A DNA stretch of 64,000 bases from a virus: positions 62,001 through 126,000 of the IMG/VR virus record IMGVR_UViG_3300008266_000014, one strand, 5' to 3'. Position numbers and translations under genes: made by a program. A model generated the notes under the pieces. It searched no databases. It saw only the letters and a program-made list of their open reading frames with translations, and was not told the DNA's origin. Below, one piece after another: positions 17,593-25,171 of the stretch (position 1 is its first letter; every line of letters starts with the position of its first letter).

Positions 17593-17764
17593 CATTTTTG
17601 AGAGTCCTTAAGCGAGGAGCCTAACCAGCGACCTGACTGCCGAGGGAAAACAATACCTCTTTCAATTGCATCTGGAAACCAGATATGTACGTGGTGCGTA
17701 CGCAAGACAATGAGGGGCCAACAAAATTCTGGCTTAAAAGGACATGGCAGTACTCTCAAAAATG
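17593..17764 (+). ncRNA. Candidate structured RNA upstream of tRNA-Asn (RNA 1)
   Basis: A perfect 13-bp outer stem (17593-17605 with 17752-17764) encloses ~146 bases. Directly stacked on it is ACTGCC/GGCAGT (17636-17641 with 17746-17751). Inside are hairpins ATCTGG-AAA-CCAGAT (17670-17684), GTACG/CGTAC (17687-17701), GAGG/CCTC (17642-17659) and GCCA/TGGC (17717-17733). No convincing coding frame. The stem ends one base before tRNA-Asn. T4 also makes small stable RNAs from its tRNA cluster, so a stable RNA is plausible. Family not recognised. Confidence 0.6.
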
Positions 17765-17765
17765 T

Positions 17766-17841
17766 TGACCGGTAGCTCAGTCGGTAGAGCAGGTGACTGT
17801 TAATCACCCTGTCGCTGGTTCGATCCCAGCCCGGTCAGCCA
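17766..17841 (+). tRNA. tRNA-Asn (GUU)
   Basis: Acceptor TGACCGG/CCGGTCA, anticodon stem GGTGA/TCACC with loop CTGTTAA, T arm with GTTCGATCC, discriminator G and encoded CCA (17839-17841). It is embedded between two large structured regions, and its CCA is part of the stem of the second. Confidence 0.95.
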
Positions 17842-18035
17842 TCTTAGATGTGGTGTTATGGAAAATCCCTGTGTACCAGGGCAGTGCACTGTCAATGGGT
17901 CCTCTGTCTAGCTAGCACGGCCAATACAGTTGATATAAACAAAAACACAGGGACGCCTATACAAATAAGTTTATTCGTTAAAAGCAAACAGTAGTAGGTA
18001 TTACTACTCATAACATGGCATCACACCTAAGATGG
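17839..18035 (+). ncRNA. Candidate structured RNA downstream of tRNA-Asn (RNA 2)
   Basis: A 22-pair stem (17839-17860 with 18014-18035) has one A-C mismatch and three G.U pairs, a sign that pairing rather than sequence is kept. Inside: TCCCTGTGT/ACACAGGGA (17866-17874 with 17945-17953), GTAGTA/TACTAC hairpin (17991-18007) and a self-complementary CAGTGCACTG (17882-17891). The stem begins with the CCA of tRNA-Asn and ends before the ribosome site of the carboxypeptidase gene. With RNA 1 and the tRNA it accounts for the 480-base gap 17585-18068. Family not recognised. Confidence 0.6.
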
Positions 18036-18068: not shown

Positions 18069-18836
18069 ATGAAGCATCTGTTTTTTACCTTTGCATTACT
18101 ATTCTCGGGAAGTAGTTTTGCAGGATCACAATTCGTACTCAACGTATCAAAAAATGAGGTTGTACTAGACTCAAGAGCAGAGGTTGTAAGACCAATTGCA
18201 AGTGTTACAAAATTAATGACAGCACTTGTTGTTATTGATAGTAATCTTGATATGCAGGAAAAGATTCCATATAGAGGATCAAAATCTGTTCCAGGCAAAC
18301 CAAGAACGAGAGAAGAACTCTTATCACTAATGTTAATTAAGAGTGATAATAATGCAGCAGAGTCTCTTGCAAAAAGTCATCCGCTAGGACGATCTGGATT
18401 CATCTATTTGATGAACAAGAAAGCGCAAGACATAGGAATGCAGTTTACTTCATACGAAGACCCTTCTGGTATAGGTATTAACAACCAGAGTACAGCCAAA
18501 GACTTGTCGTTGTTGTTGAAACATACTTCCAACTATTCTAAGATTACAGAGGTTGCATCCTCAACAAATTACACCCTTGTTGAACCTGTTAGCAGCAGAA
18601 AGAAAAAGAAGAAGTCGAAGGGGTATAGAGTGATTAGTGTTAATAACACCAACTTTAGACTTCTTAATGAATATGAAGAAATAAAGATTTCTAAAACTGG
18701 TTTTACTAACCCTGCTGGTAAATGTCTTGCAATGTTCATTAACAAGCACGGTGATAACTTTGCCGTTGTAATCCTTGGTGAGAGGGACATGAGAGCAGTA
18801 GAGAAAGTATCAAGAAACATCATTAATAGTTTATAG
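18069..18836 (+). CDS. D-alanyl-D-alanine carboxypeptidase (peptidase S11)
   Basis: 255 aa, penicillin-binding serine peptidase that trims peptidoglycan stem peptides in the periplasm. Active-site motifs: SVTK (45-48), SDN (92-94) and KTG (209-211), all in register. Start at ATG 18069 gives an immediate Sec signal MKHLFFTFALLFSGSSFAG and has AGGAAA upstream; the in-frame ATG at 18015 lies inside RNA 2. A Lys-rich insertion near residues 178-184 is unusual. It could remodel the wall against superinfection or during infection. The stop codon overlaps the first base of tRNA-Thr. Confidence 0.9.
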   Translation: MKHLFFTFALLFSGSSFAGSQFVLNVSKNEVVLDSRAEVVRPIASVTKLMTALVVIDSNLDMQEKIPYRGSKSVPGKPRTREELLSLMLIKSDNNAAESLAKSHPLGRSGFIYLMNKKAQDIGMQFTSYEDPSGIGINNQSTAKDLSLLLKHTSNYSKITEVASSTNYTLVEPVSSRKKKKKSKGYRVISVNNTNFRLLNEYEEIKISKTGFTNPAGKCLAMFINKHGDNFAVVILGERDMRAVEKVSRNIINSL

Positions 18837-19186: not shown

Positions 19187-19843
19187 ATGCTAGAAGACAT
19201 AGCAACAGAGTTGAAGAATAAACAAATATTCTACAGACCAAATATCTTAAGCAATATATTTTCTTGGCAAGAATTAGAGAAACTAATAAATCTTAGACCG
19301 TTCATTAATTCTCAAAGAGTTCATATTATATCTGATCAAGAAGATGATTGGAAATGGCCGTATCAAAATTGGTTGACAGATGTTAATACATACCCTCCAA
19401 CACTTTTTGAGAATTTGATTCGCAAGTACACTGTTTTTCTTTCTGACTGTTCTAGAGTAAATGAGAAAATTAATTCCATATGTGGTGAAATAGAAAATAT
19501 CACTGGATGTTCCTCCGATGCTCATTTATACTTTAATTTAGTAGGAAATAATTCGGAAAGTTTTGGGATACATTGTGATATATCAAATGTCCTTGTTTTG
19601 CAGGTAGAAGGGACTACTAGGTTTAAAATATGGTCAAAGTTCAACAAAAACAGAATGGTTGATAACTTGGGTCACATAGACCAACCACCTGTTGTGGATG
19701 TGGAAATGAAACCAGGGGACGTTGTATACATTCCAAAATATTACTATCACCAGGGCATATCCACAACAAAACGGCTGTCAATAAGTTTTCCTCACTTCGA
19801 AAGTGAGGATCTGCATCAAGATAGAAAATGGATAGAATTATAA
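19187..19843 (+). CDS. JmjC/cupin-type 2-oxoglutarate oxygenase-like protein
   Basis: 218 aa. FGIHCDISNVLVLQVEGTTRFKIW (about residues 124-147) has the HxD metal motif followed by the cupin strand and a lysine for 2-oxoglutarate. MKPGDVVYIPKYYYHQGIST (about 174-193) is the second cupin motif with the distal His. This is the cupin_8/JmjC-like layout of ribosomal or protein hydroxylases. Follows the tRNA cluster with a 24-base gap. Substrate unknown. Confidence 0.8.
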   Translation: MLEDIATELKNKQIFYRPNILSNIFSWQELEKLINLRPFINSQRVHIISDQEDDWKWPYQNWLTDVNTYPPTLFENLIRKYTVFLSDCSRVNEKINSICGEIENITGCSSDAHLYFNLVGNNSESFGIHCDISNVLVLQVEGTTRFKIWSKFNKNRMVDNLGHIDQPPVVDVEMKPGDVVYIPKYYYHQGISTTKRLSISFPHFESEDLHQDRKWIEL

Positions 19844-19854
19844 GGTGATATGAT

Positions 19855-20055
19855 ATGAGTATAGAGTTAAAAAGAGAGCAGATTGAGAAGCTGATTGACA
19901 TTTACAACCACTTCCACGAAATTCAATCATTCACAATTGCTCTGGAAGAAGATTCTGATATGATAACAGTGAGCTTTAATATTAATGATGTTAAACCAGA
20001 GCACACTACAGAAGATCGATTTGATAAACCATTTAAGAAACAGGTATTCAAATGA
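19855..20055 (+). CDS. Small acidic hypothetical protein
   Basis: 66 aa, charged and mostly helical at the N-terminus (KREQIEKLIDIYNHFHEIQSFTIALEEDSDMITVSFNI). No motif recognised. Overlaps the next gene by four bases (ATGA), so likely co-translated. Confidence 0.6.
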   Translation: MSIELKREQIEKLIDIYNHFHEIQSFTIALEEDSDMITVSFNINDVKPEHTTEDRFDKPFKKQVFK

Positions 20056-20264
20056 AAATAGACATCAGTGATGAAACAGTATACAATCTCGTGGTTGATG
20101 TACTGATGAATGATTACAAGTATCTGTGTAGTGACATTGAACGATACCAAGATAAGACAATTCTTTCTGATATTGAACAAGAAGATTTAAGTAACTGGAT
20201 CAGTCACCGAGATGCTCTGGAAATAACAATTAACTACTATGCAGGATATAACAGCTGGAAATAA
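20052..20264 (+). CDS. Small hypothetical protein
   Basis: 70 aa, ATGA overlap with the preceding gene. Acidic helical protein (DETVYNLVVDVLMNDYKYLCSDIERYQD ... DLSNWISHRDALEITINYYAG). Similar short proteins occur in T4-like phages; function unknown. Confidence 0.6.
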   Translation: MKIDISDETVYNLVVDVLMNDYKYLCSDIERYQDKTILSDIEQEDLSNWISHRDALEITINYYAGYNSWK

Positions 20265-20265
20265 T

Positions 20266-20715
20266 ATGAGTGATTATAGAGACACATACTACCTTGATGT
20301 TGGATTTACATGCTCCTGCTTTGACTTGTTTCATGCTGGTCATGTGTTGATGTTACAAGAAGCACGCTCACAGTGTGACTATCTGATAGTGGGATTGCAG
20401 ACCGATCCAACAATTAATCGACCAGAGAAGAACAAACCAGTCCAGTCAATCTTCGAACGATACGTTCAACTTAAAGCATGTAAGTATGTCGATGAGATTG
20501 TGATATATGAAACAGAAAATGATCTGTTGAATATTTTGAGATCTTATCGTATAGATAAAAGGTTTGTTGGTGAAGAATATCAAGACAGAATGTTTACTGG
20601 ATCTGATATCTCAACCATTGAGATAATTTATAACTCGAGAAGACACAACTTCTCAACAACAGAATTACGAAAGCGTGTTGCTGACTGCAACGCAATTGAT
20701 AGTTTAGTTAAGTAG
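20266..20715 (+). CDS. Cytidylyltransferase-like nucleotidyltransferase
   Basis: 149 aa from ATG 20266 (an in-frame upstream ATG at 20239 lies inside the previous gene). The HxGH nucleotide-binding motif is in GFTCSCFDLFHAGHVLMLQEA (about residues 14-34), and STTELRKRV near the C-terminus matches the ISST..R.R motif. Overall like glycerol-3-phosphate cytidylyltransferase (TagD) or the RfaE C-terminal domain. Such genes in marine phages are thought to act in sugar or lipid-head-group activation; the substrate is unproven. Confidence 0.82.
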   Translation: MSDYRDTYYLDVGFTCSCFDLFHAGHVLMLQEARSQCDYLIVGLQTDPTINRPEKNKPVQSIFERYVQLKACKYVDEIVIYETENDLLNILRSYRIDKRFVGEEYQDRMFTGSDISTIEIIYNSRRHNFSTTELRKRVADCNAIDSLVK

Positions 20716-20741
20716 TATCCTATCTGACCGTAGACGAGAAT

Positions 20742-20816
20742 CTGGCTATAGTTAAATGGATATAACAAGGGTCTTCTAAACCTTAATTCCTGGTTCGATT
20801 CCAGGTAGCCGGACCA
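20742..20816 (+). tRNA. tRNA-Arg (UCU)
   Basis: Acceptor CTGGCTA/TAGCCGG (one G.U), anticodon stem AGGGT/ACCTT (one G.U) with loop CTTCTAA, T arm with GTTCGATTC, discriminator A and encoded CCA. Reads AGA/AGG, heavily used in these genes. Confidence 0.92.
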
Positions 20817-20843
20817 AAAAATCAGGCCATATTTTTATTTCAT

Positions 20844-21212
20844 ATGATTTTAGTAAAAACGTATATTGATAAAAGCGACATTCATGGTGTAGGGGTGTTT
20901 GCTGCTGAGTTCATATCTAAGGGAACCAAAATTTGGGAAATTAATAGACAGCTAGATTTAGAGTGGGCAATCGAAGAGTTTATTGAGTTACCTCGTGAGG
21001 CTCAGCTCTATATTCAGCACTGGGGATATAGAGATCCTGAAACATTAATGTATAGACTAAGTTTTGATAATGATAGATTTATGAATTGGAGTAGTGATCC
21101 TAACGTAATTGGTAATTCTAAAGAAACATTTGCAGCAAGAGATATAGACAAATATCAAGAGCTGACTTATCCTTTCAGTGAAGATCTGTTTTCTCAGTTT
21201 ACTTCAAGTTAA
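20844..21212 (+). CDS. SET-domain protein
   Basis: 122 aa, near the minimal size of a SET lysine-methyltransferase domain. DKSDIHGVGVFAAEFISKGTKIWEIN (N-terminal SET segment) and DNDRFMNWSSDPNV match the GxG and the RFxNHS pseudoknot motifs, though NHS reads NWS; ELTYPFSEDLF matches the EELTYDY motif. The two changes suggest a divergent enzyme. SET proteins are rare in phages; possible target is a host or phage protein lysine. Confidence 0.75.
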   Translation: MILVKTYIDKSDIHGVGVFAAEFISKGTKIWEINRQLDLEWAIEEFIELPREAQLYIQHWGYRDPETLMYRLSFDNDRFMNWSSDPNVIGNSKETFAARDIDKYQELTYPFSEDLFSQFTSS

Positions 21213-21213
21213 T

Positions 21214-21288
21214 GCGGGTGTAACTCAGTGGTAGAGTGTCAGCCTTCCAAGCTGTTCGTCGCAGGTTCGATCCCTGTCACCCGCTCCA
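21214..21288 (+). tRNA. tRNA-Gly (UCC)
   Basis: Acceptor GCGGGTG/CACCCGC, anticodon stem TCAGC/GCTGT with loop CTTCCAA, T arm with GTTCGATCC, discriminator T and encoded CCA. Confidence 0.93.
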
Positions 21289-21301
21289 TTATTACAACAA
21301 A

Positions 21302-21868
21302 ATGCAAAATCTAATTTTAACTTTAGATAGTAGTGGAATACCAAACAACTGGACAACGTGGCAAGAAGCAGTACTATTAAAATGTAAGGGATTGATTGCA
21401 TGGGAGTTTGGTGATAGAGAGTTCATGTTCAGAGGTGGTATATCAAGAATAACCGGAGAGCAGTCGGTAATTGAAGTGTCCTCTATTATTGCATTGAAGA
21501 CTAAATTCAAATACAAGGGACGCACCCCCACATTCTCTAACAGAAATCTTTTTAGACGCGATTTACATACGTGTGCATATTGTGGTAAGAGCTCTGGGGA
21601 TCATGAACTAACGAAGGATCATATCATTCCGATATCTAAAAAAGGTCCTACGTCTTGGATGAATTGTGTTACTTCCTGTAAGAAGTGTAATGGTAAGAAA
21701 GGGAACAGAACCCCAGAAGAGTCTGGTATGCATCTTCTTTATGTGCCATATATACCAGATAAGGCAGAATCGTTGATCCTGCAAAACAGAAACATTCTTG
21801 CAGACCAAATGCAGTTTTTGTTGAATTTCATTCCCAAACACAGTAGAGTGTGGAACACTGTTGATTAA
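21302..21868 (+). CDS. HNH endonuclease
   Basis: 188 aa from ATG 21302; the only longer in-frame reading begins inside tRNA-Gly. The HNH fold is clear at about residues 96-140: CAYCG ... TKDHIIPISKKGPTSWMNCVTSCKKCNGKKGNRTPEESGM, with two CxxC zinc pairs and the DHIIP strand. The N-terminal ~80 residues have the usual WQEAV...KGLIAWE pattern of HNH proteins often encoded by marine phages. Could be a homing or packaging-type nuclease; no intron is seen next to it. Confidence 0.88.
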   Translation: MQNLILTLDSSGIPNNWTTWQEAVLLKCKGLIAWEFGDREFMFRGGISRITGEQSVIEVSSIIALKTKFKYKGRTPTFSNRNLFRRDLHTCAYCGKSSGDHELTKDHIIPISKKGPTSWMNCVTSCKKCNGKKGNRTPEESGMHLLYVPYIPDKAESLILQNRNILADQMQFLLNFIPKHSRVWNTVD

Positions 21869-24316: not shown

Positions 24317-25171
24317 ATGGCTACATTCTGTCACATCGCTCCCATCCCACACCTAGATATCATCAAAGGATCAAAGGCTCATCTTGCGCTTGCACATCTT
24401 ATCGAGCAAAGCGAAGAGTACACTTCCTTTTATGCCAAGGAAAGACAAAATGGCAGTATGGTAATTCTAGATAATTCTGCTTTTGAAATGTACAAGCAAG
24501 GGAAGCCAATGTATGAAATACCCAAGCTGATTGAGATGGCAGATCGACTGAAAGCAGATTATGTTGTAATGTCGGATTATCCAAACGACTACAGCAAAAC
24601 AACAATCAGTGCTGCAAAAGAAATTGCACCTGTTTTGAAGGACAAAGGATACGGTACTTTCTTTTGTCCACAGTCTAAGATTGGAGACAAGGGTGATTTG
24701 TTTAATTGTTTTGAATGGGCCGCTGATTCTGATCTCGTTGACTATATCGGTGTATCAATTCTTGCAATTCCAAATGCTTATGGTGTGGAAAAAAAGAACA
24801 AACTCCAGCGTTTTGTTAGCCGGTATATGTTTATGCAGGAGTTGAGAGATAGTGGTGTACTTGATCATGCAAAGTCCAAAGGTAAAAAGATCCACATGCT
24901 CGGTATGTTAGATGGTCCTGGTGAGATTAGATTGATGGAATCATTTAAAGACTATATCGATACGTGGGACAGTAGTGCTGCGATGTGGTTAGGTCTTCAT
25001 GCCGGTAAAACATTCGACAGTTCCCCAACAGGACTGATAAACGGTAAGTATGAGGAAGAAGTAGACTTTGATTATCAAAATGATAAAGGTAAGTTGAATG
25101 CAATTATCAACATGAGTATAATCAACAACTATATTCAAATGTACCTAACACCGGAGAGCGATGATGAGTAA
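24317..25171 (+). CDS. DNA/tRNA-guanine transglycosylase-like protein (DpdA-like)
   Basis: 284 aa TIM-barrel protein of the TGT superfamily. Seen: MVILDNSAFE near residue 50 and ADYVVMSDYPNDYSKT near residue 82, with the Asp residues expected for nucleophile/base binding; the C-terminal zinc site of bacterial TGT (CxCxxC) is absent. Phage DpdA proteins of this kind insert 7-deazaguanine bases into DNA. Together with QueE, QueD and FolE here, DNA modification is the best role. A tRNA role cannot be ruled out. Confidence 0.72.
   Translation: MATFCHIAPIPHLDIIKGSKAHLALAHLIEQSEEYTSFYAKERQNGSMVILDNSAFEMYKQGKPMYEIPKLIEMADRLKADYVVMSDYPNDYSKTTISAAKEIAPVLKDKGYGTFFCPQSKIGDKGDLFNCFEWAADSDLVDYIGVSILAIPNAYGVEKKNKLQRFVSRYMFMQELRDSGVLDHAKSKGKKIHMLGMLDGPGEIRLMESFKDYIDTWDSSAAMWLGLHAGKTFDSSPTGLINGKYEEEVDFDYQNDKGKLNAIINMSIINNYIQMYLTPESDDE

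Follow-up and report, generated by a model that had tools for sequence, protein, structure and literature searches.

Two compact elements on either side of a tRNA-Asn gene in a T4-like phage, E1 and E2, on balance probably represent separate families of structured, noncoding and trans-acting RNAs that are released by tRNA maturation and of which E2 forms a kissing-loop dimer. The 64,000 nucleotides (nt) of DNA analysed here, referred to as the window, belong to a 155.5-kb IMG/VR record; the phage is T4-like, sharing 73% identity in the major head protein with Stenotrophomonas phage DLP6. Conserved secondary structure, a location within tRNA arrays, a strand shared with the tRNAs, common use of the tRNA CCA and covariation of both a palindromic loop (E2) and a pseudoknot (E1) are apparent from the comparison of related sequences, which were collected from other contigs and records (cited by L numbers where they need to be told apart).

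In the window, the end of E1 is 1 nt away from tRNA-Asn, and the 5′ end of E2 lies on the CCA of the same tRNA (Table 1). An earlier note on this DNA had described a perfect 13-bp stem around 146 nt before the tRNA and a longer stem with one mismatch, enclosing 153 nt and starting on the CCA, behind it. Both descriptions, including the coordinates, proved correct: the outer stem of E1 consists of 13 perfect pairs, and the 22 positions of the E2 stem comprise 21 pairs and one mismatch. Of the phrase ‘large structured RNAs’ used in that note, ‘structured’ stands, while ‘large’ is a stretch for elements of 172 nt (E1) and 197 nt (E2). The folding energies correspond to z-scores of −3.8 (E1) and −5.3 (E2), with none of 200 dinucleotide shuffles doing as well in either case. 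Under purpose-built covariance models, whose E-values are rough but whose bit scores are unaffected by this, the window copy of E1 scores 137.5 bits (model R2) and that of E2 156.5 bits (model R1), each copy being itself part of the set from which its model was built (one of nine sequences for R2 and one of 33 for R1).

Table 1. Positions of the RNA elements and their parts in the window, and of further elements on other contigs
Feature	Position	Strand	Remarks
E1 structured RNA element	17593–17764	+	Upstream of tRNA-Asn; fold z −3.8, covariance model R2, family covariation
E1 outer stem, 5′ arm CATTTTTGAGAGT	17593–17605	+	Partner 17752–17764; double compensatory changes
E1 pseudoknot, 5′ strand ACCA, in junction	17624–17627	+	Complementary to UGGU 17692–17695
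E1 second helix, 5′ arm ACTGCC	17636–17641	+	Partner GGCAGT 17746–17751
E1 pseudoknot, 3′ strand UGGU, in apical hairpin loop	17692–17695	+	Joint changes with 5′ strand
E1 outer stem, 3′ arm ACTCTCAAAAATG	17752–17764	+	1 nt from tRNA-Asn 5′ end
tRNA-Asn (GTT)	17766–17841	+	Encoded CCA 17839–17841; ARAGORN and Rfam
E2 structured RNA element	17839–18035	+	First 3 nt are the tRNA-Asn CCA; fold z, covariance model R1, family
E2 outer stem P1, 5′ arm	17839–17860	+	Partner 18014–18035
E2 hairpin P2 (CCCUG/CAGGG)	17867–17881	+	Compensatory changes at 2/5 pairs
E2 P3 apical loop palindrome CTAGCTAG	17908–17915	+	Proposed kissing-loop dimer site
E2 helix P4 (AUAAAC 17935–17940/GUUUAU 17969–17974)	17935–17974	+	Double changes in alignment
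E2 hairpin P5 (AGUAGUA/UACUACU)	17990–18008	+	Predicted fold in window
E2 outer stem P1, 3′ arm	18014–18035	+	Partner 17839–17860
Family F	L081:7395–7576, L079:7390–7562, L083:2385–2560, L080:55–240, L118:7725–7900		
tRNA-Asn/tRNA-Val element	L090:1358–1511(−), L094:6640–6794, L102:6596–6748, L111, L112, L100, L150:4430–4582		
Module B	L007:5280–5428, L013:3861–4016, L073:1517–1665, L074:8842–8991(−)		

The earlier note had likened the two RNAs to the small stable RNAs of T4 and to GOLLD and ROOL but had been unable to match them to any known one, and the searches agree with this. Across the window, only tRNA reaches the gathering score in Rfam 15, and at E ≤ 5 the elements of the window draw chance matches only, among which neither GOLLD nor ROOL appears. 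A DNA search of 50,697 deposited phage records with the window copies and other family members returned one weak chance match and no E1 or E2 homologue. Scans with the 2OG oxygenase and the carboxypeptidase of the window alone gave only a near-identical contig (L002), and in syntenic relatives traced through the gene at 24317 blastn gave no E1 or E2 homologue; the gaps among their tRNAs hold other structured, ORF-poor sequences. The carboxypeptidase also led to L081, the only carboxypeptidase-sharing relative with E2, whose copy is 61% identical and retains the full 22-bp outer stem. A short pattern derived from the window and L081 copies then matched 50 contigs, most of them real as confirmed with R1, which recognises 39 full-length copies (144–206 bits) and five at contig ends (60–120 bits) on other contigs; L098 in this list and L081 are one contig. 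A search of the larger records with the model alone added a divergent copy in L155 (58 bits), which overlaps the CCA of an upstream tRNA-Gly.

Conserved pairing, as the earlier note had proposed, is evident throughout the E2 family: 21 of 32 pairs carry double compensatory changes, a number equalled by none of 500 shuffles, and 97.1% of cells are paired, compared with 78.8% in shuffled and 32–52% in slid alignments. Double changes affect 13 of 20 pairs in P1, where 98.9% of cells are paired, and six of seven pairs of P4 in the family alignment; in P2, every cell is paired and the changes are C-G to U-A or the reverse and A-U to U-A or the reverse. P5 has a hairpin at the equivalent place in other subfamilies, as read from the alignment by eye. 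Collection of the E2 set with the exact pattern TATGGAAAATYCCWGTG makes the invariance of those columns partly a matter of construction, while their pairing partners were free to vary. The subfamilies differ in length by one base.

Members of the E1 family were gathered by blastn within E2-bearing contigs, by two patterns and by model R2, giving 10 distinct sequences that all lie inside tRNA arrays. They include a divergent one in L095 that scores 79.5 bits although it was absent from the build set of R2. Double compensation extends to 11 of 31 pairs and 92.4% of cells are paired, with shuffle and slide controls run here as well. In the outer stem, GAGAGT/ACTCTC becomes GAGGGT/ACCCTC and GAAAGT/ACTTTC; in the second helix, a C-G pair is replaced by U-A in L104 and L132, and the single E1 substitution in L002 (17641, C to T) turns C-G into U·G and so keeps the pairing. 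The junction and the apical loop contain a pseudoknot with two compensatory changes: ACCA:UGGU, which the divergent L095 copy retains, reads GACUA:UAGUC in L122, L138, L144 and L153 and AUCA:UGAU in L139. Pattern matches in L140, L142, L143, L145, L146, L147, L149, L152 and L154, which have neither tRNAs nor the E1 structure, were set aside as chance, as were an 18-bit model match inside the carboxypeptidase gene of the L013 record and a weak match in Escherichia phage Goslar with no model match and no tRNA at the site.

These data argue against two simple explanations. Chance structure is rejected by the shuffle and slide controls together with the recurrence of both elements in other phages with compensatory changes. 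A protein-coding gene is rejected as no open frame is conserved across either family: all frames contain stops in 33 of the 35 distinct E2 copies, and only two of the 10 E1 members have a stop-free one, both on the minus strand. Thus, the earlier statement that neither element holds a sound frame is borne out, and its author's own proposal of what would speak against structured RNAs—a lack of covariation among homologues, or a frame that is conserved—was examined for both, with heavy covariation and no conserved frame as the outcome. Fragments of RNase P or of a group I intron, suspected from the look-alike motifs GGCUUA and GACUA, were dropped for want of Rfam support.

The genomic setting ties both families to tRNAs. 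A same-strand tRNA lies within 250 nt of E2 in all 35 distinct copies measured and within 8 nt in 31 of them, the nearest one being mostly 2–7 nt downstream; nine of the 35 overlap the CCA of the previous tRNA. Likewise, the CCA of the upstream tRNA enters the outer stem in five of the 10 E1 copies, and six have a tRNA no more than 14 nt downstream. Which tRNAs and genes adjoin E1 and E2 varies, and both are often found in the middle of an array. Closely related E2 copies termed group I are usually first in their array, with no upstream tRNA detected. E2 is single-copy and plus-sense in each of the 19 of 29 records carrying it, a second match in one record being the same site read on the opposite strand. 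The Gp23 head protein was found in all five searched records above 150 kb and in two shorter ones (the remaining records are fragments, in which its absence is uninformative), and six of these seven contain E2; the E2 carriers are thus T4-like wherever a placement is possible. One copy, in L150, comes from a 5-kb contig assigned to the bin of a β-proteobacterial metagenome-assembled genome; this contig may be phage DNA within the bin, and as a clue to the host it is weak at best.

From this arrangement, we infer transcription, processing, stability and dimer formation as follows. E1 and E2 would be transcribed together with the tRNAs of the array, 3′ processing of the upstream tRNA would free their 5′ ends and the 5′-maturation cut of the downstream tRNA by RNase P their 3′ ends, whereupon the long outer stem would seal a compact, stable core. 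E1 would then fold around its junction-loop pseudoknot, and E2 copies would join through the self-complementary P3 loop into a kissing-loop homodimer or a higher oligomer. Because of the position in the arrays and of established tRNA processing, co-transcription and release by tRNA maturation are likely. Since the window copy of E2 is followed by the gene for a D-Ala-D-Ala carboxypeptidase, starting 34 nt downstream, rather than by a tRNA, its 3′ end would need another nuclease.

The close fit to tRNA ends also accommodates a reading in which E1 and E2 are processing spacers acting in cis, whose stem hides the upstream CCA, spaces the next tRNA and orders precursor maturation, the excised RNA having no job of its own. 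Pairing of the CCA into the outer stem in many copies, the strikingly constant gap of 2–7 nt and the almost complete conservation of pairing in the E2 outer stem (98.9% of cells, as above) are all in line with this. A spacer, however, could do without conserved helices over an interior of some 150 nt, without a palindromic loop that evolves and without a pseudoknot that covaries; moreover, E2 occurs once per record even though arrays hold many tRNA junctions, and group I copies have no detected upstream tRNA, and we therefore regard a mere spacer as unlikely. Group I copies, which precede the first detected tRNA, and the proximity of the carboxypeptidase gene in the window would instead suit a cis-regulatory leader or riboswitch-like element for the array or the next gene. 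The diversity of array positions and neighbours and the restriction of E2 to L081 among the carboxypeptidase-sharing relatives leave this reading little probability. Very improbable is a DNA-level element, either a small mobile element with inverted repeats or a recombination hotspot in the array: terminal inverted repeats are indeed present, and comparable gaps in relatives are filled by different structured elements, as in a region that is being shuffled, yet there is one copy per record, a same-strand tRNA accompanies all 35 measured copies and the internal helices show compensatory change. A trans-acting role is favoured over spacer or leader with reasonable confidence on three grounds: a conserved interior, one copy of each element, and variable placement with respect to tRNAs and genes. 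As to what that role might be, our guess, drawn from the company that E1 and E2 keep, is that during infection they may act on the machinery of translation or of tRNA, or shield it.

The argument for self-association of E2 comes from P3, whose apical loop holds, at the homologous site of each complete copy examined, a self-complementary stretch of 4–8 nt that differs in sequence: CUAGCUAG in the window, L094 and L124; CCUGCAGG in L089 and relatives; CCAGCUGG in L096; UCCUAGGA in L090 and relatives; GUGCAC in L092; ACUCGAGU in L095; AUUCGAAU in L122; UUCGAA in L097, L115 and L125; UCCGGA in L099, L105 and L118; GCGCGC in L132; GAUAUC in L081; CUGCAG in L101; and 4-nt palindromic cores in L093, L104, L116 and L117. 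A contiguous palindrome cannot pair inside one hairpin loop. That self-complementarity is kept while the sequence changes consequently points to pairing between two copies, an inference made from sequence, as ViennaRNA does not model kissing loops. Palindrome switching in loop L9.3 of OLE RNA and loop L21a of GOLLD has been used in the same way to support intermolecular contacts (Kretsch et al., PMC12286853).

Palindromes could also be a by-product of the composition of small loops or a dyad recognised by a protein, in which case E1 and E2 would be structured RNAs as proposed and E2 a monomer. Although a shuffle test on the palindromic tips speaks for self-association, its Fisher p is no lower than 0.001–0.007 once each group is reduced to a single loop, and in three of the 15 loop contexts the palindrome is just 4 nt long, both of which would suit a monomer. 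Against it, L106, L096 and L094 have near-identical flanks with three different 8-nt palindromes (CCUGCAGG, CCAGCUGG and CUAGCUAG) that differ by mirror-image double changes. By our own count, a random two-base change in an 8-nt palindrome preserves the palindrome in about 5% of cases. The divergent L155 copy, which played no part in forming the idea, also has a palindrome, CTGCAG, at the same loop. We thus hold a monomeric E2 to be rather unlikely and self-association through the P3 loop to be fairly likely on the strength of these patterns.

As far as the open-access literature in PubMed Central goes, E1 and E2 are new families of a known kind, the phage tRNA-island RNAs; what is new about them is that they are compact and that the self-complementary loop of E2 is unusually variable. 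Among the known ones, rnaC/rnaD of T4, the small stable RNAs called species 1 and 2, lie in the tRNA cluster directly after a tRNA and are of similar size (139 and 119 nt). The T4 region shows no blastn similarity to E1 or E2 and no match to either model, and rnaC contains a T-arm-like sequence, GGGTTCGAATCCCGG, that E1 and E2 lack. Neither ARAGORN nor Rfam detects a tRNA or tmRNA fold in E1 or E2, the intervening tRNA-Asn being the only one called. GOLLD and ROOL resemble E1 and E2 as phage or prophage RNAs of unknown function near tRNA islands, but are much larger multi-helix RNAs of several hundred nt, with many GOLLD members exceeding 800 nt (PMC12286853). Both form homo-oligomers to whose cohesion kissing loops contribute, and one such loop of GOLLD switches from palindrome to palindrome (PMC12286853); the self-complementary loop of E2 also changes in this way among the sequences compared. 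OLE, an RNA-only dimer whose kissing loop L9.3 has a covarying palindrome (PMC12286853), is a named large RNA from another context, and neither E1 nor E2 matches an Rfam family.

Phage tRNA islands are known to host puzzling RNAs such as T4 rnaC/rnaD, ROOL and GOLLD, of which only the large ones have been resolved as assemblies. To these are now added two short families from T4-like phages, without a match in Rfam or among the deposited phage records searched, that come with testable structures and a defined processing hypothesis. Their length of ∼170–200 nt makes them easy to prepare and analyse, and they could show what tRNA-island RNAs do.

Nor are E1 and E2 the only such elements. Related phages carry family F in their tRNA arrays, a structured RNA with a long outer stem and double compensation in 19 of 59 pairs (five sequences); a 160-nt structured element between tRNA-Asn and tRNA-Val, the outer ends of which use the tRNA CCA in several copies, shows it in eight of 41 (seven contigs). 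Further elements, termed A, B, C and E, each recur in two or more phages, and it looks worthwhile to survey the tRNA arrays of phages systematically for structured families. Taken broadly, and only tentatively, it is possible that the T4-like phages of uncultured bacteria hold between their tRNA genes a modular repertoire of compact RNAs (E1, E2, F and several candidates) that would be freed by tRNA processing, and that at least E2 would self-assemble by a phage-specific palindromic code in which a phage's own copies pair best, as a small counterpart of GOLLD and ROOL.

Several observations on the surroundings complete the picture. The palindromic tips, the sharing of the CCA by relatives of E1 and the E1 pseudoknot are additions to what the earlier note had described. 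Module B, a strongly conserved, ORF-poor element of ∼150 nt, lies between tRNA-Glu and tRNA-Asn in syntenic relatives of the window, and its place before tRNA-Asn is taken by E1 in the window itself. Module C spans ∼200 nt, is 80% identical between L013:4030–4232 and L081:7205–7393 and lies directly 3′ of E2 in L081, while A and E are structured, ORF-poor gaps in the same tRNA regions (L013:3733–3850 and L009:3804–3919; L008:649–882). Downstream of E2 in the window, positions 18069–18836 hold a phage gene for a D-alanyl-D-alanine carboxypeptidase (Peptidase_S11), whose product seems to have a signal peptide. The start chosen by the ORF finder, 18015, falls inside E2; a better fit is the ATG at 18069, which follows AAAGGA. 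Further on (19187–21868), genes for JmjC/cupin, cytidylyltransferase-like, SET-domain and HNH endonuclease proteins are interleaved with tRNA genes.
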